DNA from: Sphingobacteriaceae bacterium | GTDB lineage: Bacteria > Bacteroidota > Bacteroidia > Sphingobacteriales > Sphingobacteriaceae | Assembly (NCBI GenBank): GCA_947479815.1 | Contig: CANKAT010000004.1 | Span: forward strand, 1-64,000 | Direction: 5' to 3' | DNA: 64,000 nt | Shown: one piece after another, positions 8,754 to 53,995 of the stretch | How the letters are laid out: every line of letters starts with the position of its first letter | How positions within the stretch are numbered: the stretch's first letter is position 1 | Position numbers and translations under genes: made by a program | Notes under the pieces: generated by a model | Databases searched by the model: none | What the model was told of the DNA's origin: nothing | Seen by the model: only the letters and a program-made list of their open reading frames with translations

Positions 8754-10187
8754 TTACTTCCCGATACAGAACTTACTAAAAATCGTCTCCAGCAAATCAT
8801 CAGTCGTAACCTGACCGGTGATCTCACCAAGATAATAAAGAGCCTGCTTAATATCTGAAGCCAAAAAATCTGAAGTTATAGGGTTATCGATATTTACAAG
8901 TACTCGGTTCAGCGAATCTTCGGTCTTTTGTAGCGCTTCCAGGTGACGGATATTGGAAACCAAAACATCATCGGTATTGATGGCATGGAGATTTACTTTG
9001 CGGAGGATATGCAATTTCAAATCTTCAATTCCAGTTTTATTTTTAGCAGAAATGTAGAGAATGTTATCTGTTGTCTGTTGTCTGTTATCTGTTGTCTGTT
9101 GTCTGTTATCTGATAACTGATAACTGATAACTGACAACTGGTCTTCAAATTCATCATTAACCAGATCCTTCTTATTCACCACAACCAGGAAAGGAATATC
9201 CAGCTCATTCAAATACTTGACCTGAGTTTCAATTTCTTTCACACTCTGCTTAGGATCAACTAGATATATAATCAATTTTGCTTGCTTGATCTTTTCATGG
9301 GTACGCTCCACTCCTTTTGCCTCAATACTATCTACAGTTTCACGGATGCCTGCTGTATCAATAAAACGGAAACGGAGCCCGCCTATGATCATTTCATCTT
9401 CCACCGTATCACGGGTAGTACCGGCTATCTCCGAAACAATGGCACGTTCTTCATTTAAAAGGGCGTTCAGTAAAGTTGATTTCCCAACATTTGGTTTACC
9501 AGCAATAACCACAGGAACCCCATTTTTCATCACATTGCCTTGCTCAAATGATTGAATTAAACGGTGTAAGATGCGCTGGATCTGATAGATAAGTCCTTTG
9601 AGCTGTTCCCGATTGGCAAATTCTACATCTTCTTCACCAAAATCAAGTTCAAGCTCGATCATAGCTGCAAAATGAATGAGCTGATCACGCAAATGCTGCA
9701 GTTCTCCAGAAAAGCCACCACGCATTTGCTGCATAGCCACCTGATGCGAGGCCTGTGAGTTAGAAGCAATCAGATCGGCAACAGCCTCGGCCTGTGAAAG
9801 GTCAAGCTGACCATTTAGAAATGCTCTTAAAGTAAACTCACCCGGATTGGCCGGGCGGGCACCTTTACGGATCAGTAGTTTAATGATACTTTCAATAATA
9901 AATGCAGAACCATGCGTAGATATCTCCACCACATTTTCGCGGGTGTACGATTTTGGTCCAACAAACAAAGAAACCAAAACCTCATCGATAATCTGATTAC
10001 CATCCCTGATAGTCCCAAAATGAATGGTATGGGTATGCTGTATACTGAGGTCTTTGCCAGCAAAAACTTCATTTACCAAAGCAATTGCATCGGGTCCGGA
10101 AAGCCTGATCACTCCAATTGCACCTATTCCAGAAGGTGTTGCCAGGGCAATGATGGTATCAGAAGTGTAAACAAGAGTATCAGACAT
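8754..10187 (-). CDS. mnmE: tRNA modification GTPase MnmE (TrmE)
   Basis: MnmE works with MnmG to add the (carboxymethyl)aminomethyl group at position 5 of wobble uridine in several tRNAs. The N-terminal tetrahydrofolate-binding domain starts DTIIALATPSGIGAIGVIRLSG. The embedded G domain has G1 GKPNVGKST, G3 DTAG and G4 NKKD, and the protein ends with the catalytic CIGK. The ATG at 10187 fits the family N-terminus; the frame continues upstream to 10379 but that extension is not MnmE-like. At 477 residues it is longer than the usual 450-460. The excess is a run of about 26 residues between NKKD and the G5 ISAK that reads as repeats of DNRQQTT and SVISYQL. It is encoded by the 7-base array at 9064-9140. 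The insertion is in frame and the flanking motifs are intact, so the gene should be functional. Confidence 0.95.
   Translation of the reverse strand: MSDTLVYTSDTIIALATPSGIGAIGVIRLSGPDAIALVNEVFAGKDLSIQHTHTIHFGTIRDGNQIIDEVLVSLFVGPKSYTRENVVEISTHGSAFIIESIIKLLIRKGARPANPGEFTLRAFLNGQLDLSQAEAVADLIASNSQASHQVAMQQMRGGFSGELQHLRDQLIHFAAMIELELDFGEEDVEFANREQLKGLIYQIQRILHRLIQSFEQGNVMKNGVPVVIAGKPNVGKSTLLNALLNEERAIVSEIAGTTRDTVEDEMIIGGLRFRFIDTAGIRETVDSIEAKGVERTHEKIKQAKLIIYLVDPKQSVKEIETQVKYLNELDIPFLVVVNKKDLVNDEFEDQLSVISYQLSDNRQQTTDNRQQTTDNILYISAKNKTGIEDLKLHILRKVNLHAINTDDVLVSNIRHLEALQKTEDSLNRVLVNIDNPITSDFLASDIKQALYYLGEITGQVTTDDLLETIFSKFCIGK
9064..9140. repeat. Heptanucleotide array inside mnmE
   Basis: Eleven consecutive 7-base units are seen on the plus strand: TTATCTG or TTGTCTG seven times (9064-9112), then ATAACTG three times and ACAACTG once (9113-9140). 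The second half contains GATAAC, the reverse complement of GTTATC in the first half, so the array can fold on itself. The TTATCTG and TTGTCTG units also recur in the intergenic array at 47973-48748. It encodes the extra segment in the MnmE G domain. Confidence 0.9.
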
Positions 10188-25225: not shown

Positions 25226-25915
25226 ATGAAACGATTTCTTCTAATTTTGGCCGCATCGGCAATTTCAACATTAAGCTTTGCACAAACAAAACCCATGGCT
25301 ACAACAGCTCCATTATTCAAAACCCCTAGCGACTCTGCCAGTTATGCTTTTGGCGCAAGTATCGCCAATGATCTGAAATCACGTGGAGTCACAAGTTTAA
25401 ATTATTCATTGATCTCAAAAGCCATGAATGATGTTTTATCTGGCGGAGTAGTTATTATGAGTCCTGAAAAATGTCAGCAAGTTATTTATACTTTTTTAAG
25501 TGCCATTGAAAAGAAAAAATTTGAGGGCTCGATCACAACTGCTGCAAATTTTTTGGCAGAAAACAAGAAAAAACCGGGAGTAACTACACTTCCAAGTGGT
25601 TTACAATTTGAAATTATAACTCCGGCAACTGGAGCTAAACCAGTGGCAACAGATGAGGTTACCGTACATTATAAAGGTACTCTTACCAATGGAAGTCAGT
25701 TTGATAGTTCTTTAGATCGCGGTGAACCAACTACATTTACGTTAAATCAGGTTATCCCAGGATGGACTGAAGGTCTTCAGCAAATGTCAGTAGGATCAAA
25801 ATACCGTTTCTTTATCCCTCATGCTCTTGGTTATGGAGAACGTGGAGCTGGCAAAGATATCCCTCCTTATAGTACGCTAATATTTGAAGTTGAATTGATC
25901 AAGATTGGGAAGTAG
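25226..25915 (+). CDS. Secreted FKBP-type peptidyl-prolyl isomerase
   Basis: The 229-residue protein has a signal peptide ending near TLSFAQ, a helical N-terminal dimerisation region of FkpA/Mip type (about 35-115, with DSASYAFGASIANDLKSRG) and a C-terminal FKBP domain (about 125-229). The FKBP domain has VTVHYKGTLTNGSQFDSS, VIPGWTEGLQQMSVGSKYRF and IPPYSTLIFEVELIKIG, and the active-site Tyr, Phe, Asp and Trp are present. It accelerates proline isomerisation and probably acts as a chaperone in the periplasm or at the outer membrane. It is transcribed alone, divergent from the AGMO gene. A 7-base repeat array begins at the base after its stop codon. Confidence 0.93.
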   Translation: MKRFLLILAASAISTLSFAQTKPMATTAPLFKTPSDSASYAFGASIANDLKSRGVTSLNYSLISKAMNDVLSGGVVIMSPEKCQQVIYTFLSAIEKKKFEGSITTAANFLAENKKKPGVTTLPSGLQFEIITPATGAKPVATDEVTVHYKGTLTNGSQFDSSLDRGEPTTFTLNQVIPGWTEGLQQMSVGSKYRFFIPHALGYGERGAGKDIPPYSTLIFEVELIKIGK

Positions 25916-26033
25916 GGGAAAGGGGAAAGCGGAAAGGTGGAAGCGGAAAGGTGAAAGCTAAAAGCTAAAAGATTAAAGCTGAAGATTAAAGTGAAAAGCT
26001 AAAAGGTTAAAGGGGAAAGCTGAAAGGCAAAAG
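25916..26033. repeat. Heptanucleotide array of AAAG type
   Basis: Seventeen units follow the FKBP stop codon directly. All are 7 bases except one of 6, and nearly all end in AAAG or AAG: GGGAAAG, CGGAAAG, GTGGAAG, CTAAAAG, ATTAAAG, TGAAAAG, GCAAAAG and others. Units vary in their first three or four bases, but phase is kept throughout. It lies between two convergent genes. The same vocabulary appears at 53781-53995. Confidence 0.85.
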
Positions 26034-26148
26034 TTATGAATGTTAGATTCAAAATCTAAGCAAAAAACGGATTAATTATCAGGGTCGCTAAAGCAAAATT
26101 ACCATTGTGCGGTTTTAGTACTAAACTCTATTACTGCTTATAACCTGA

Positions 26149-44683: not shown

Positions 44684-47680
44684 TTATAAACCTATTTGAA
44701 GTCCACCAGTGTAAGTTCTTGCTTGTGGATTATTTCCTATTTCGTTAACACCTATTGGCGCCTCTGGATCTAAACCAGGATACTTTGTAAATGTTAACAC
44801 ATTAATTCCTGTAGCAAAAACACGAATATTACGCAATTTCACTTTAGAAGCTATGCTTGCCGGAAGATTATATGAAAGCGTTATATTTTTTAAACGAATA
44901 TAAGACGCATCAAATAAATATCTGGTTGAACCTGTGGTTATAGCATTAGATAATGCGCCAGAATTATTAAGATGTGGAGTATTGCGTAATGCTCTTGGAA
45001 CAGCTGTTATCTGTCCAGGTGCAAGCCATTGTTCAGCTATCTGAGAAACAATCTGATTATCATCAGTATATCCTGAATTCCAAATAGTCTGGTACATACT
45101 TACAAAAGATTTATTTCCGTACTGGTACTGGAATAGAAAATCAAGACTTAAATTCTTGTAGGAAACTGTGTTATTGAAACCTCCAAAGAATTTTGGATAT
45201 CTTGTACCCTGAATTTTTGGATCAGTTGCTGCTACTAAGTTGTAGGTATAGTGACCATTTACATCATACCACATTGGCCTACCATCAGCAGGATTAACTC
45301 CAGCCCATCCATAAGTAAAAATTATATCAATTGGCTGACCTACAAAATACGAAGTTCCAATACGATCTTGTCCACCTATCAATTCTAAAACTTTATTTCT
45401 TTGGAATGAAATATTAAAATCAGAAGACCATTTAAAACCTGATTTTGTATCTAAATTGATTGTATTTAAACCAAATTCTATACCCTCATTCTGAACTTTT
45501 CCAATGTTTTCGTTGATAGACCCAAAGCCTGAGTCAGAAACTAATGGACGGCTCAATAATAAGTTGGAGTTTATTCTACGATAAACATCGATACTACCCG
45601 TAATGCGATTGCCTAAAAATCCATAATCAACTCCTACGTTAGTTGTAGCAGCTTGCTCCCATGATAAGTTTGCATTTCCCAATTGTGTTGGACGAATACC
45701 ATTACTTCCAAGGTAACTTCCTCCTGCACCAAATAATGCTCGGGATGCAAAGTCAGAGATCTGATCATTACCAACCACACCATAACTTGCACGCAATTTT
45801 AAATCAGAAATAACTTTGTTATCGGCTAAGAAATCTTCACCAGAAATTCTCCAGGTTCCAGAAATACCCCCAAATAATCCATAACGTTTTTCTGCTCCGA
45901 ATCGAGAACTACCATCATAACGCATGGTTCCAGATAAGTAGTATTTTTCTTTGAAATCGTAATTAAGTTTTGAGAACAAACCTGCTTTTTTATAACCTGT
46001 AAAAAAACCAGCTATTGAAAGCGGAGTAGCATTTTGTAAACTTCTGAAAAACGGATTAGGGAATGCCTGACCAGTAGCAGAAGCACTTTCAACATTCTGT
46101 TCCTTGTATTCACCACCTACTAAAGCAGCAAGCGTATGGAAACCGAATTTTTTATTCCAGTTAGCTGCAACGTTTGAATTCCAATCTAGGTTACGCGTAT
46201 TCACAACAGACGAAGTTCCACCATTGGCAGCAAATGCTGGAATAGAGGCAGGACGCTGATTATCATCTCGCGTATCAACGAAATCAATTCCTGAGAATCC
46301 AGTAATTGATAAAGAAGGAGTTACCTTATAAGTTGCAGAAAAATTACTTACAGTTTGAAGGGCATTACCCAATCTAACTTCTTCCTTTGCACCTTGAACA
46401 ATGTTATATGGGAATGAAGCTTTCAAGTCTGCACCCTGAGTATAGGTTCCATCTGCCTGATAAATAGGCACATCAGGACGTAAAGTAAATGGATAGTAAA
46501 ATGGTGAGTTAACACTTGCACCATCGGCAATTGATCCAAAAACTTTAGATGCTGTTAAGGATATATTTGCATTAACACTAAGTTTATCATTCACTTTGTG
46601 ACCAACATTACCTCTGAAAGTTCCTCTTTTGTAGAAAGATTCAATTACCTGAGCATTTTGATCTGTATACGATCCTGAAATAAAGAAATTGGTTTTTGAA
46701 TCACCACCAGCGAAGGAAAGGTCATAAATTCTTGATTGCCCTTCACGAGTAACAGCATCAAACCAATTTGTGCTCGGAGCAGTTGAATTGGCAGGATTTC
46801 CAAAAAATGCTGTTGCAGAAGATTCAGAAGTTCCAGCATTAACGGCACCAGGAACTTTAAACTGTGCATATTGTTGTGCGTTCATTACATCGTAACGCGA
46901 TACATTTTGAATAACACCTTGCTGAGCAGAAAAATTCACTGCAGTAGCTCCGTTTTTACCTTTTTTGGTAGTGATTAAAACTACTCCGTTAGCAGCAGCA
47001 GCACCATAAATAGCAGAAGCAGCAGCATCTTTTAAAACTTCTATGTTGTCAATATCATTTGGATTGATTGAACCCAATGTATTGGAAGAAGCTTGTCCGG
47101 AAATACCTCCAGTTTTAATCTGAACACCATCAACAATATACAATGGATCATTTCCTGCGTTGATGGAACCTACCCCACGTACTCTTACGTTGATAGCTCC
47201 ACCCGGCTGACCACTCTGAGAAGTAACCTGAACACCAGCAGCACGACCCTGTAATGCACGGTCAAAACTTTGTATTGGTAAGTTTTCAATTTGTTTTCCA
47301 GTTACACGTACACTTGCAGATCCTAGATCACGTTTCTGTGCAACACCATAACCTGTTACAACTACCTCAGCAATTTGCTGTGAGTCAGAAACTAATCGAA
47401 CATTTACTGATCCCGCAGAACCTAATGTAATACTTTGAGTTAAATACCCAATGTATGTAAAAGTTAAAACCTTGCTATCTAATGGAACAGACAAGGAAAA
47501 ATTTCCATCTACATTGGTTGAAGTACCCACGGCACCACCTTTTACTCGAACTGAAACACCTGGAAGGGGGAGACCATCATCTGCTCCAACAACTCTACCA
47601 GTGATTGTCTTATTCTGGGCTATTGCGTTGGAAAAAGCAAAAAAGCCTAACAATAAGAAAGCTAGTAATTTTCTTTTCAT
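44684..47680 (-). CDS. susC: SusC/RagA family TonB-linked outer-membrane transporter
   Basis: The 998-residue protein has a signal peptide ending AIAQ and a CarboxypepD-regulatory-like domain (about 23-105, ITGRVVGADDGLPLPGVSV). The SusC box VVVTGYGVAQKRDLGSASV follows, then a plug (LQGRAAGVQVTSQSGQPGG, LYIVDGVQI, IEVLKDAAASAIYG) and a large barrel ending GGLQIGL. With SusD it forms a TonB-driven pump for oligomers. It lacks the STN domain present in the other receptor of this window, so regulation by a FecR-type anti-sigma factor is less likely. A variant -7 element TATTCTTG is seen upstream in the AT-rich leader. Confidence 0.95.
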   Translation of the reverse strand: MKRKLLAFLLLGFFAFSNAIAQNKTITGRVVGADDGLPLPGVSVRVKGGAVGTSTNVDGNFSLSVPLDSKVLTFTYIGYLTQSITLGSAGSVNVRLVSDSQQIAEVVVTGYGVAQKRDLGSASVRVTGKQIENLPIQSFDRALQGRAAGVQVTSQSGQPGGAINVRVRGVGSINAGNDPLYIVDGVQIKTGGISGQASSNTLGSINPNDIDNIEVLKDAAASAIYGAAAANGVVLITTKKGKNGATAVNFSAQQGVIQNVSRYDVMNAQQYAQFKVPGAVNAGTSESSATAFFGNPANSTAPSTNWFDAVTREGQSRIYDLSFAGGDSKTNFFISGSYTDQNAQVIESFYKRGTFRGNVGHKVNDKLSVNANISLTASKVFGSIADGASVNSPFYYPFTLRPDVPIYQADGTYTQGADLKASFPYNIVQGAKEEVRLGNALQTVSNFSATYKVTPSLSITGFSGIDFVDTRDDNQRPASIPAFAANGGTSSVVNTRNLDWNSNVAANWNKKFGFHTLAALVGGEYKEQNVESASATGQAFPNPFFRSLQNATPLSIAGFFTGYKKAGLFSKLNYDFKEKYYLSGTMRYDGSSRFGAEKRYGLFGGISGTWRISGEDFLADNKVISDLKLRASYGVVGNDQISDFASRALFGAGGSYLGSNGIRPTQLGNANLSWEQAATTNVGVDYGFLGNRITGSIDVYRRINSNLLLSRPLVSDSGFGSINENIGKVQNEGIEFGLNTINLDTKSGFKWSSDFNISFQRNKVLELIGGQDRIGTSYFVGQPIDIIFTYGWAGVNPADGRPMWYDVNGHYTYNLVAATDPKIQGTRYPKFFGGFNNTVSYKNLSLDFLFQYQYGNKSFVSMYQTIWNSGYTDDNQIVSQIAEQWLAPGQITAVPRALRNTPHLNNSGALSNAITTGSTRYLFDASYIRLKNITLSYNLPASIASKVKLRNIRVFATGINVLTFTKYPGLDPEAPIGVNEIGNNPQARTYTGGLQIGL

Positions 47681-47972
47681 TTGATTCTTTTTAAATTAAT
47701 AAATTGGTTAATAACCTTGGTTTTTGAATTAATTGGCAAGAATAATAGATAAATCCGAAAAAAGTGTATTAAGTATGTAAGTTTAATGTAACAAAATTGT
47801 TGCAAAACGCTGTTTATTTTTAATTCTCAATATTCAAATTGCGTACTAAAACACATTCAAACAAGCAATTGTAATCCTTATCAATTTATGATTGAACATT
47901 AGAAACAAAATAAGGATAGCTATTAATCCATTATTTAAAATGAGAGAATGTAAAGGGATGAGGAAGGAGGTC
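47681..47972. promoter_or_regulatory. susC upstream region
   Basis: AT-rich leader of the susCD operon. On the minus strand it has a near-consensus -7 element TATTCTTG and A-rich sequence before the start. No ORF or hairpin of note is seen. Confidence 0.35.
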
Positions 47973-48748
47973 AGTTGTCTGTTATCTGTTATCTGAGGTC
48001 TGTTGTCTGTTATCTGTTATCTGTTGTCTGTTGTCTGTTATCTGAGGTCGGAGGTCTGAGGTCTGAGGTCTGAAGTATGAGGTCAGAAGTATGAGGTCAG
48101 AAAAAAGCAGAAAATTTTCAATTAGCACTAAACAGTCTTGGTTCTTTGCTCCTGGTTCTTGGTTCAGTTATCAGTTATCTGTTATCAGTTATCTGTTATC
48201 TGAGGTCGGAGGTATGAGGTCAGAAGTATGAGGTCGGAGGTCAGAAGTATGAGGTCAGAAAAAAGCAGAAAATTTTCAATTAGCACTAAACAGTCTTGGT
48301 TCTTGGCTCTTGGCTCTTGGTTCAGTTATCAGTTATCTGTTATCTGTTGTCTGTTCTCTGTTATCTGAGGTCGGAGGTATGAAGTATGAGGTCAGAAGTA
48401 TGAGGTCAGAAAAAAGCAGAAAATTTTCAATTAGCACTACACAGTCTTTGTTCTTTGCTCTTGGTTCTTGGTTCTGTTGTCTGTTATCAGTTATCTGTTG
48501 TCAGAGGTCAGAAAAAAGCAGAAATTTTCAATTAGCACCACACAGTCTTTGTTCTTTGCTCTTGGTTCTTGGTTCTTGGTTCTGTTGTCTGTTATCAGTT
48601 ATCTGTTATCTGAGGTCGGAGGTATGAGGTCAGAAGTATGAGGTCGGAGGTCTGAAGTATGAGGTCAGAAGTATGAGGTCAGAAAAAAGCAGAAAATTTT
48701 CAATTAGCACTAAACAGTCTTGGTTCTTGGCTCTTGGTTCTTGGTTCT
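47973..48748. repeat. Composite heptanucleotide array with five copies of a 39-base core
   Basis: The array is built of 7-base units from a few families: TTATCTG/TTGTCTG, AGGTCTG/AGGTATG/AAGTATG/AGGTCAG, and TTGGTTC/TTGGCTC/TTTGTTC. Between them lies a conserved core of 39 bases (one copy 38) starting AAAAAAGCAG, with palindrome GAAAATTTTC, and ending CAGTCTT. Core copies are at 48101-48139, 48259-48297, 48410-48448, 48512-48549 and 48683-48721, with 102 to 171 bases between starts. The array lies between argS and susC, both on the minus strand. Translation of it gives only low-complexity frames, which I do not call genes. Confidence 0.92.
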
Positions 48749-48840
48749 ATATAGTTGGTTAGTAATTAGATGGTTAGGTGGTTAGTAATATTTGTTATCT
48801 GAAGTATGAGGTGCTTGTATGAAATGAAGCAGAATCTATC

Positions 48841-48896
48841 TCAATACTCAATACTCACTACTCAATACTCACTACTAAATACTCAATACTCTATAC
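48841..48896. repeat. Heptanucleotide array of TCAATAC type
   Basis: Eight in-phase 7-base units end 14 bases from the argS stop: TCAATAC (four times), TCACTAC (twice), TAAATAC and TCTATAC. The stretch from 48750 to 48790 is also loosely periodic in GGTTAG(T/G), with units of 7 and 8 bases. Confidence 0.85.
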
Positions 48897-48910
48897 TCAA
48901 AATTAGTTTC

Positions 48911-50689
48911 CTACATCCTATCGGGCACCTGAATACCCAATAATTTCATTCCTTTATTGATAGTTGAGGCAGTGGCAGCAGAAAGGTCTAGTCTGAAATT
49001 TCTAACATCTGGATCTTCGGCCTTCAATATGCTTTCTTCATGATAAAACTTATTGAATAATTTAGCTAACTCAAAAACATAATTTGCAATATGTGCCGGA
49101 CTGAATTCTTTAGCTGATGCAGCTATCACATCAGGGTATTTAGCCAAATTAACGATCAGATCTTTTTCAAGAGCGGTAAGTATAGTTGAATAGTTAGTAG
49201 AAATTTTATTTTGATAATCTGCTTTTGCCATAACTGAACGTATCCTTGCATGAGTATACTGAATAAAAGGCCCAGTATGCCCCTGGAAATCAATCGATTC
49301 ATTCGGATCAAATAATAATCTCTTTTTAGGCTCAACCTTTAACAAGAAAAATTTAAGAGCTCCTAATCCTATCATATGATAGAGCTCTTTCTTCTCTTGC
49401 TCTGAGAACCCTTCAACTTTTCCTAATTCCTCGGTTCTGTCACGAGCAGTTAGGATCATTTCATCCATCAACTCATCGGCATCTACAACTGTGCCCTCCC
49501 TAGATTTCATTTTACCAGAAGGTAAATCAACCATCCCATACGAAAGGTGAAATAAACCTTTAGCCCATGTTTTACCCAATTTCTGGAGAATCAGAAATAA
49601 TACTTTAAAATGATAATCCTGTTCATTACCTACCACATAAATAGACTTATCCATTTTAAAGTCATCATATTTTAATTGGGCAGTTCCAAGATCCTGTGTA
49701 ATGTAAACAGAAGTTCCATCTGCTCTAAGAACAAGTTTCTGATCTAGGCCATCTTCGGTGAGATCTATCCAAACTGACCCATCATCTTTTTTAAAAAAAA
49801 CTCTCTTTTCAAGCCCCTCCTGAATCGTATCCTTCCCTAAAAGGTAAGTATCTGATTCATAATAGTATTTCTTGAAATCAACTCCCAGCATTTTATAAGT
49901 AACTTCAAAACCGGAGTAAACCCAGCCGTTCATCATACTCCAAAGCTTTATTACCTCCTGATCGCCAGCCTCCCATTTCAAAAGCATTTCCTGAGCCTGC
50001 TTTATAATTGGAGCATTCTTTTTTGCTTCATCTTCAGTCTGTCCTTTATCGATCAGCGCTTCAATCTGCTTTTTATACTCCTTATCAAAAATCACATAAT
50101 ATTTACCAACCAGGTGGTCTCCTTTTAGTTGACTACTTTGAGGAGTTTCACCATTCCCAAACATTTGCCATGCCAGCATCGACTTGCAAATATGTATCCC
50201 ACGATCGTTTACCAAATTGACCTTTATTACTTCATATCCATTTGCCGATAAGATTTCAGCGACAGAAAAACCCAGTAAATTATTGCGCACATGCCCTAAA
50301 TGAAGGGGCTTGTTCGTATTTGGGGAAGAATACTCCACCATAACTTTTTGTCCATTAGACGGGAATTGCCCAAATGAACTGCTATGAATAGTAGTTAATA
50401 ACTCATCAACCCAGTAAGAATCAGCAATTGACAAATTCAAAAATCCTTTGATCACGTTGAAATCTTCAACTTCTTTAACATTATCCTTTAGATACTCTCC
50501 TATTTCAGTTCCGGTTTGTTCAGGAGTTTTTTTAGAAAAACGGGTAAATGGAAAGGTAACAGCAGTAACCTGACCTTCAAATTCTTTTCGAGTTTCCTGA
50601 ATAACGATACTATCTGATGCTATTTCTGTTTGATAAAGTACTGAAACAGCTCTCCGGATTTGCTGAACTATGGTATTTTCTATTGTCAT
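48911..50689 (-). CDS. argS: Arginyl-tRNA synthetase
   Basis: The 592-residue class I synthetase has an N-terminal additional domain, the HIGH-type motif HLGH in NTNKPLHLGHVRNN, a KMSKS-type loop read as KMKSREGTVV, and the C-terminal anticodon-binding domain (about 480-592) with PFIQYTHARIRSV. It charges tRNA-Arg. The ATG at 50689 (MTIENTIVQQ...) matches the family start; an upstream ATG at 50743 adds 18 residues without counterpart. It is divergent from the arginine decarboxylase gene. Two 7-base arrays lie just beyond its 3' end. Confidence 0.95.
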   Translation of the reverse strand: MTIENTIVQQIRRAVSVLYQTEIASDSIVIQETRKEFEGQVTAVTFPFTRFSKKTPEQTGTEIGEYLKDNVKEVEDFNVIKGFLNLSIADSYWVDELLTTIHSSSFGQFPSNGQKVMVEYSSPNTNKPLHLGHVRNNLLGFSVAEILSANGYEVIKVNLVNDRGIHICKSMLAWQMFGNGETPQSSQLKGDHLVGKYYVIFDKEYKKQIEALIDKGQTEDEAKKNAPIIKQAQEMLLKWEAGDQEVIKLWSMMNGWVYSGFEVTYKMLGVDFKKYYYESDTYLLGKDTIQEGLEKRVFFKKDDGSVWIDLTEDGLDQKLVLRADGTSVYITQDLGTAQLKYDDFKMDKSIYVVGNEQDYHFKVLFLILQKLGKTWAKGLFHLSYGMVDLPSGKMKSREGTVVDADELMDEMILTARDRTEELGKVEGFSEQEKKELYHMIGLGALKFFLLKVEPKKRLLFDPNESIDFQGHTGPFIQYTHARIRSVMAKADYQNKISTNYSTILTALEKDLIVNLAKYPDVIAASAKEFSPAHIANYVFELAKLFNKFYHEESILKAEDPDVRNFRLDLSAATASTINKGMKLLGIQVPDRM

Positions 50690-51016
50690 TTTAATTGGCA
50701 TTGAGCCCTGTAAATTTAATCGATAATAAGGAATTTGTTGCACCTAGCAAGATATCAAATACATGATCTTTCATTAGATTCTATTTATTTAGATTATTAC
50801 TCCAAATTAAAAACAGCAGACTATTTGATTATTGATCAAATTAAAAACTGGATCCTCAAGTAAAGCAGCACTATTAGATTTAACCTTAATGATATTCAAA
50901 TCAAGCATATTCCATTTTGTTTACCACACAGATTTTTAAATGAACATAAAATTTTTAAGCAGTGTATTATGTTCTATGCTATATGCTTTTTATATCTTTG
51001 CCAAAATTATAAAAAA
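50690..51016. other. Divergent promoter region of argS and arginine decarboxylase
   Basis: This 327-base AT-rich spacer contains no gene. The decarboxylase side has a perfect -7 element TATCTTTG at 50993-51000. I see no arginine-attenuator-like RNA fold. Confidence 0.5.
50993..51000 (+). promoter_or_regulatory. Bacteroidota-type -7 element for the arginine decarboxylase gene
   Basis: TATCTTTG matches TAnnTTTG exactly, 16 bases before the ATG at 51017. The -33 TTG box is not clear. Confidence 0.55.
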
Positions 51017-53750: not shown

Positions 53751-53780
53751 ATTTAGACTTTAATTTAAGAACTAAGGAAG

Positions 53781-53995
53781 GTTAAAGGTTAAAGGGTAAA
53801 GCAGAAAGTTGTAAGTTGTAAGTAATAAGTTAAAAGGTAAAAGCTAAAAGCAGAAAGTTGTAAGTAATAAGTAATAAGTTAAAAGGTAAAAGCTTAAAGG
53901 TTAATGGGAAATGGTTAAAGATAAAAGTTCTTTCTTTCTTGCTTTCAGCTTTCTGCTTTCGGCTTTAGGGCTTTCAGCTTTAAAAAGGCTTTCTT
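53781..53995. repeat. Heptanucleotide array with orientation switch
   Basis: Twenty-one in-phase 7-base units occupy 53781-53927 (GTTAAAG, GGTAAAG, CAGAAAG, TTGTAAG, TAATAAG, TTAAAAG, CTAAAAG and variants), nearly all ending in AAG. After a short T/C spacer the reverse type follows (53942-53995): CTTTCAG, CTTTCTG, CTTTCGG, CTTTAGG, CTTTCAG and CTTTAAA. CTTTCAG is the reverse complement of CTGAAAG, a unit of the 25916 array. The two halves could fold on each other. The array reaches the stop codon of the PhoB-like gene. Confidence 0.9.

Follow-up and report, generated by a model that had tools for sequence, protein, structure and literature searches.

In the window analysed here, a 64-kb stretch from a draft assembly rated 100% complete (G000), the gap between argS, encoding arginyl-tRNA synthetase, and a susC-type TonB-dependent receptor gene contains a composite array of heptamers (Table 1). 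Read 5′ to 3′ along the minus strand, which also encodes argS and susC, each module of the array passes from AACCAAG/GAGCAAA-type units through the core, GACTGTTTAGTGCTAATTGAAATTTTCTGCTTTTTTC, to GACTTCA/TACCTCA-type units and then to GACAACT/GATAACT/GATAACA-type units. A 105-aa ORF with a TTG start (48310-48627) sits entirely within the repeats. Rfam families gave no match at E ≤ 1 across 47000-49500, and a known structured RNA was rejected. Further stretches of period 7 in the window lie at 9044-9163, 25901-26044, 48823-48914 and 53761-53987.

Table 1. Features of the argS-susC gap and its flanks (positions in the 64-kb window), with examples of a second dispersed repeat at other loci of the same genome.
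Feature	Position	Strand	Basis
Whole composite heptamer array	47945..48756	-	Lag-7 segment and Tandem Repeats Finder (TRF) rows, periods 7/14/21/28/35/101/151/158
TGTTATC/TGTTGTC-type heptamers, outer end	47974..48044; again 48165-48200, 48325-48367, 48473-48504, 48581-48612	.	TRF and unit reading
TGAGGTC/AGAAGTA-type heptamers, partly alternating as 14-mers	48045..48100; again 48201-48258, 48368-48409, 48505-48511, 48613-48682	.	TRF and unit reading
Core copy 1 (GACTGTTTAGTGCTAATTGAAAATTTTCTGCTTTTTT)	48101..48137	-	Sequence scan and core-model match
Core copy 2	48259..48295	-	Sequence scan and core-model match
Core copy 3, one mismatch	48410..48446	-	Sequence scan and core-model match
Core copy 4, shorter by one base like many copies at other loci	48512..48547	-	Sequence scan and core-model match
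Core copy 5	48683..48719	-	Sequence scan and core-model match
TTGGTTC/TTTGCTC-type heptamers	48136..48164; again 48294-48325, 48445-48473, 48546-48583, 48718-48748	.	TRF and unit reading
argS (arginyl-tRNA synthetase), flanking gene, stop abuts array region	48911..50743	-	ORF listing
susC-type TonB-dependent receptor gene, other flank	44684..47680	-	ORF listing; orthologous in L013
Separate CTCAATA-type heptamer array, about 10 bases past the argS stop, shorter in relatives	48840..48900 (lag-7 segment 48823-48914)	.	TRF, alignments
Segment replacing about 1.04 kb with hbd of G008 (L013 11188-12226)	47927..48799	.	Flank alignments, ORFs
Examples of the TGCTTGGTGGTACCCACCAAGCA ... GCCGAGGCGGTACGACGAGACCATGAG repeat	L286 3-227, L158 1-337, L154 180-409, L149 3816-4681

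The strict 7-base phase that a first-pass annotation had read from the letters is evident in the autocorrelation: identity at lag 7 within 47973-48748 was 0.658, against 0.272 ± 0.016 (maximum 0.321) in 1000 dinucleotide shuffles, and the only other raised lags up to 35 were 14, 21, 28 and 35. By this measure the array is a tandem repeat with a period of exactly seven, beyond what chance would give. It is not a simple heptamer repeat made of one unit and nothing else, for it combines ordered unit families with a conserved non-periodic core. Unit order is the same in every module, as annotated: on the plus strand TGTTATC-type units are followed by TGAGGTC/AGAAGTA-type units, the core and TTGGTTC-type units, with the fourth module short. 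All five annotated core starts were borne out (the fourth at 48511/48512); the core copies measure 36-38 bases. Three copies are identical, one has a single mismatch and one lacks a base. Steps from core to core (158, 151, 102 and 171 bases) are whole heptamers plus the fixed core and leave remainders modulo 7 of 4, 4, 4 and 3, the last because of the one-base deletion in core 4. The nested periods listed in Table 1 bear on a further claim of the annotation, that degenerate units in constant phase exclude slippage. This claim is not supported, since nested repeats of 7, 14, 21 and about 150 bases are what one would expect of slippage acting together with point mutation and unequal exchange.

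Once gaps are allowed, the same core is found at unlinked loci, and a core private to this locus is thereby ruled out. At the loci read out, some of them in G008, the copies are one base shorter and the unit families around them follow the order seen here; most copies in the window carry one extra A relative to them. A sequence model built on 30 copies counted 72 in G000, spread over about 36 loci, and 53 and 20 in its two nearest relatives, G008 and G016 (the latter 82% complete). In these three genomes the block with its 37-base, non-repetitive core occupies tens of loci and often forms tandem modules. The same model returned nothing or one weak match in each of 17 other genomes of the genus, and no match in 294 other genomes of the class, searched with stricter filters. 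The annotation had staked its reading on the core recurring elsewhere and on a lag-7 signal above that of shuffled sequence; the core does occur elsewhere and the signal is far above the shuffles. The genomes compared are drafts, several of them MAGs, including G008 (L013) and G016 (L014), which were matched to these records by common array sequence at the RluA site.

A search for an ancestral single copy of the core gave only weak matches, in G007, G009, G014 and G017. The one in G007 (L251, about 1500-1610) is a single core-like stretch followed by GACCTCA/TACTTCC-type (TACCTCA-type) units, between convergent genes; with an E-value of only 7e-4, it is possibly a relic or ancestor of the core. 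At an unlinked locus of G008 (L093, about 1835-1900), a stretch like the one downstream of argS, with TATTGAG units and AGCTTCATTTCATACAAG, lies among modules, which suggests that a second non-heptameric piece also travels.

Comparison of orthologous sites in two species showed flanks mostly 92-97% identical and arrays of different length. The number of cores at such sites differs as well, for example 1 vs 5, 1 vs 3 and 4 vs 2, figures that may be wrong in places as many contigs end inside arrays. Modules of one locus are the most alike (identity 0.87), compared with 0.80 between loci of G000. Between orthologous loci identity is 0.83, hardly above the 0.82 of unrelated loci in two genomes, and because the flanks remain mostly 92-97% identical, turnover of modules within a locus outpaces divergence of the flanking genes. 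Taken modulo 7, the length of the tract between cores belongs to one of two neighbouring classes in 15 of 19 cases (the pattern search behind these 19 misses some core copies of the window), so that tracts change by near-whole heptamers. Both length and sequence thus vary at one site between related genomes. Taken together, the differing module numbers, the near-whole heptamer steps and the likeness of modules within a locus bear out the annotation's proposal that the array grows by module duplication and unit exchange.

At the argS site itself the change involved a gene. G008 has the order argS, a core-less array of 73 bases, hbd, susC, its hbd being by sequence a member of the 3-hydroxyacyl-CoA dehydrogenase family of 298 aa, and the spacing from argS to susC is similar (1.3-1.7 kb) in several other congeners. 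Homology to G008 breaks off on the susC side at 47926, a point that lies 96 bases upstream of where hbd starts, and begins again on the argS side at 48800. From the flank alignments, about 1.04 kb including hbd is judged to be replaced here by about 0.87 kb, most of it array. No hbd ortholog was found in the genome under study, where the best match is 36% identical. The absence of the gene from an assembly rated complete, together with the conserved order of both flanks, argues for a real loss rather than an assembly join inside the array.

Heptamer arrays extend well beyond the carriers of the core. In genome samples from the genus, segments with lag-7 periodicity number 0-10 per Mb in G013, G015 and G004 and 80-95 per Mb in G002, G009, G006 and G008, and periods other than 7 are rare. 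The sets of units differ between genomes, as between G000 and G018. Several species have arrays with different units at common sites: behind argS, between the response-regulator and RluA genes, and within mnmE. Some congeners have no array at these orthologous sites, that of argS included, and the junctions of such empty sites are blurred by heptamers. Judged by this distribution, the core-bearing module is younger and more restricted than heptamer arrays in general.

The array at 9044-9163 runs in frame within mnmE (trmE), in the loop of the GTPase domain between the NKxD and SAK motifs; congeners have different heptamers there (44-63 residues) or none (24 residues). Three more arrays lie within predicted ORFs (L149 6848-7002, L156 8154-8265 and L275 3349-3421). 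In such positions three heptamers together encode one unit of a seven-residue peptide repeat, for example SDLRPPT. The array at 53761-53987, like those at the orthologous sites L113-L131, is core-less and stands behind the response-regulator stop, with AAAGCTG-type and then CTTTCAG-type units forming complementary arms. At the same site G001 (L116) has two GACAGGTCGYGACCTGTC palindromes in place of heptamers.

The position of arrays relative to genes was examined in 685 kb of this genome, a sample partly chosen for containing arrays, with genes called by a simple ORF rule. Of 72 arrays, only 4 are inside ORFs, and in this sample they can be described as dispersed and mostly non-coding; 13 are at contig edges. 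The remaining 55 are distributed between tandem (27), convergent (21) and divergent (7) genes, the corresponding background, counted over gaps of 50 bases or more, being 191, 53 and 70. Convergent pairs are enriched for all arrays (P = 0.0008) and for core-bearing ones, 11 of 19 of which lie in convergent pairs vs 17% of gaps (P = 0.0001); with several tests on one sample these P values are indicative. Between tandem genes, arrays lie a median of -9 bases from the stop upstream and 15 bases from the start downstream, with array edges blurred by about 20 bases.

Such a distribution would suit a functional element of 3′ ends, acting as terminator or as insulator between convergent genes. Some core-less arrays with two complementary arms do exceed shuffles in folding stability by a wide margin (z to -7), and the arms at the response-regulator/RluA site stay complementary in several species despite the change of units. 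However, core-bearing arrays as a class fold no better than shuffles, the orientation of the core relative to tandem genes is mixed and the argS site has no array in some congeners; moreover, the same bias is expected if selection removes insertions elsewhere. We infer that the bias reflects tolerance, such DNA being least harmful at 3′ ends, and regard a 3′-end function for the family as rather unlikely. Some core-less arrays whose arms are complementary may act as terminators; for the composite ones such a role is not indicated.

Calothrix reportedly has tandem heptanucleotides, the STRR sequences attributed to Mazel in 1990. Where the first-pass annotation recognised no described relative of the layout, the general kind proves to be on record: mixed intergenic heptamer arrays have been described in Bacteroidetes and cyanobacteria (PMC4679880). 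In the survey of Mrazek et al. 2007, as PMC4679880 cites it, heptanucleotides formed the largest category of repeats in most of the genomes, and unit length seven likewise predominates in the present arrays. The taxa named there with intergenic TAACTGA or mixed heptamers are Beggiatoaceae, Microcystis, Elizabethkingia and Gramella (MacGregor 2015, PMC4679880), with TAACTGA mixed with other heptamers in cyanobacteria and five Bacteroidetes. Read on the opposite strand, TAACTGA becomes TCAGTTA, a unit of the present array. In the sections of PMC4679880 consulted those repeats are, as here, direct repeats of seven bases, mostly intergenic and in Bacteroidetes placed among other heptamers; they keep their position between related strains while differing by indels in steps of 7, contigs end in them and a role in rearrangement is suggested. 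An ordered module built on a conserved core that is not heptameric does not appear in those sections.

Other described heptamers resemble the present ones in part. The GGGNATC and GGGGAYT repeats of Xanthomonas and Nostoc (Rehm 2015, PMC4692102) are likewise degenerate, dispersed and mostly non-coding and vary in length and sequence at the same sites between related genomes, but they are G-rich and quadruplex-forming, consist of one unit type, often in four units, and have no core. Long simple sequence repeats and STRR are, as far as the citing papers tell (PMC4679880 and PMC4692102), single simple repeats and not composite modules. Several satellites of Chloroflexus derive from one heptamer, (GATAGRA)n, and in the portion of PMC6749651 available no conserved core is mentioned with them. 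Intergenic heptanucleotide satellites are hence already known, whereas searches of the open-licence literature yielded no description of a composite module with a conserved core; the dispersed family seen here is therefore taken to be new in this respect.

For Beggiatoaceae, MacGregor proposed that TAACTGA repeats serve a DNA- or RNA-binding protein (PMC4679880), and the seven-base phase could be read in this way here, given that the phase is constant and part of the unit is retained. Against this analogy, unit families differ among congeners at the same sites, unit spectra differ among genomes and the present arrays abut stops, unlike those of Beggiatoaceae, which lie just upstream of start codons. 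We therefore consider a binding array improbable.

The dispersal of an ordered block over about 36 loci of one genome, with a sharp phylogenetic boundary, a conserved core in variable surroundings and some orthologous places that are empty, recalls a non-autonomous mobile element, in which the core would be recognised by a transposase or similar enzyme acting in trans and the heptamers would be passengers or tails. Yet on inspection of the loci read, no terminal inverted repeats or constant ends were seen and the ends differ among loci, and comparable core sites are mostly common in position between relatives. A scan for transposases of the Y1 family (PF01797) gave no match in G000, which disfavours RAYT/Y1 transposition in this genome, and no RVT_1 domain was found in the carriers G000, G008 and G016. 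Mobility of this kind therefore seems unlikely. Horizontal carriage was rejected: phage and plasmid collections yielded only short heptamer matches (Microcystis, Nostoc, Rahnella, Embleya). Copying of units from a template, by a reverse transcriptase or a comparable enzyme, would account for each genome having its own set of units in constant phase. Unit types do recur over many loci within a genome and the sets differ from genome to genome, but with RVT_1 absent from all three carriers we give templated writing very little credence.

We favour, as the probable account, a lineage-specific composite satellite that grows by gain and loss of whole heptamers and by tandem duplication of modules and that probably spreads when arrays recombine with one another. 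Nothing points to a cellular function for it. Heptamer units would be gained and lost by replication slippage, and modules duplicated by unequal exchange or template switching. Blocks may reach other loci through recombination or break repair, with pre-existing short heptamer arrays offering the matching sequence, and one such event may have removed hbd at the present site. Transfer between loci is proposed because it best accounts for the dispersal of an ordered block; no single transfer between two loci was traced, the core being short and identities too low to name donors.

Slippage alone leaves the constant seven-base period unaccounted for. One could imagine an unrecognised activity, of the host or encoded by an element, that maintains heptamer arrays throughout the genus, fixing the period at seven, setting the genome-specific units exchanged between loci and rewriting arrays at fixed landing sites, with the core as its recognition or priming sequence. 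Should it exist, one activity would set both the period and the genome-specific group of units, but we hold this to be a long shot.

With the composite satellite as the preferred reading, the three related bacteria would present a simple repeat turning into a higher-order dispersed family, with congeners at earlier or different stages, a kind of evolution usually studied in eukaryotic satellites. The arrays offer a natural system in which to ask why period seven is favoured among bacterial tandem repeats, and the argS site documents a gene, hbd, replaced by a heptamer array. On the practical side, such arrays fragment draft assemblies, and they may be taken in error for genes or regulatory elements.

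Two other dispersed repeats were noticed in this material. One of 200-400 bases, TGCTTGGTGGTACCCACCAAGCA ... GCCGAGGCGGTACGACGAGACCATGAG, has about a dozen copies in the sample of this genome (examples in Table 1). The other, of about 90 bases with the ends GTCATTTCGAACACC ... GGTGGAGAAATCTG, lies at L275 2385-2505 and L145 7399-7483, and a similar one stands behind argS in L016-L020.
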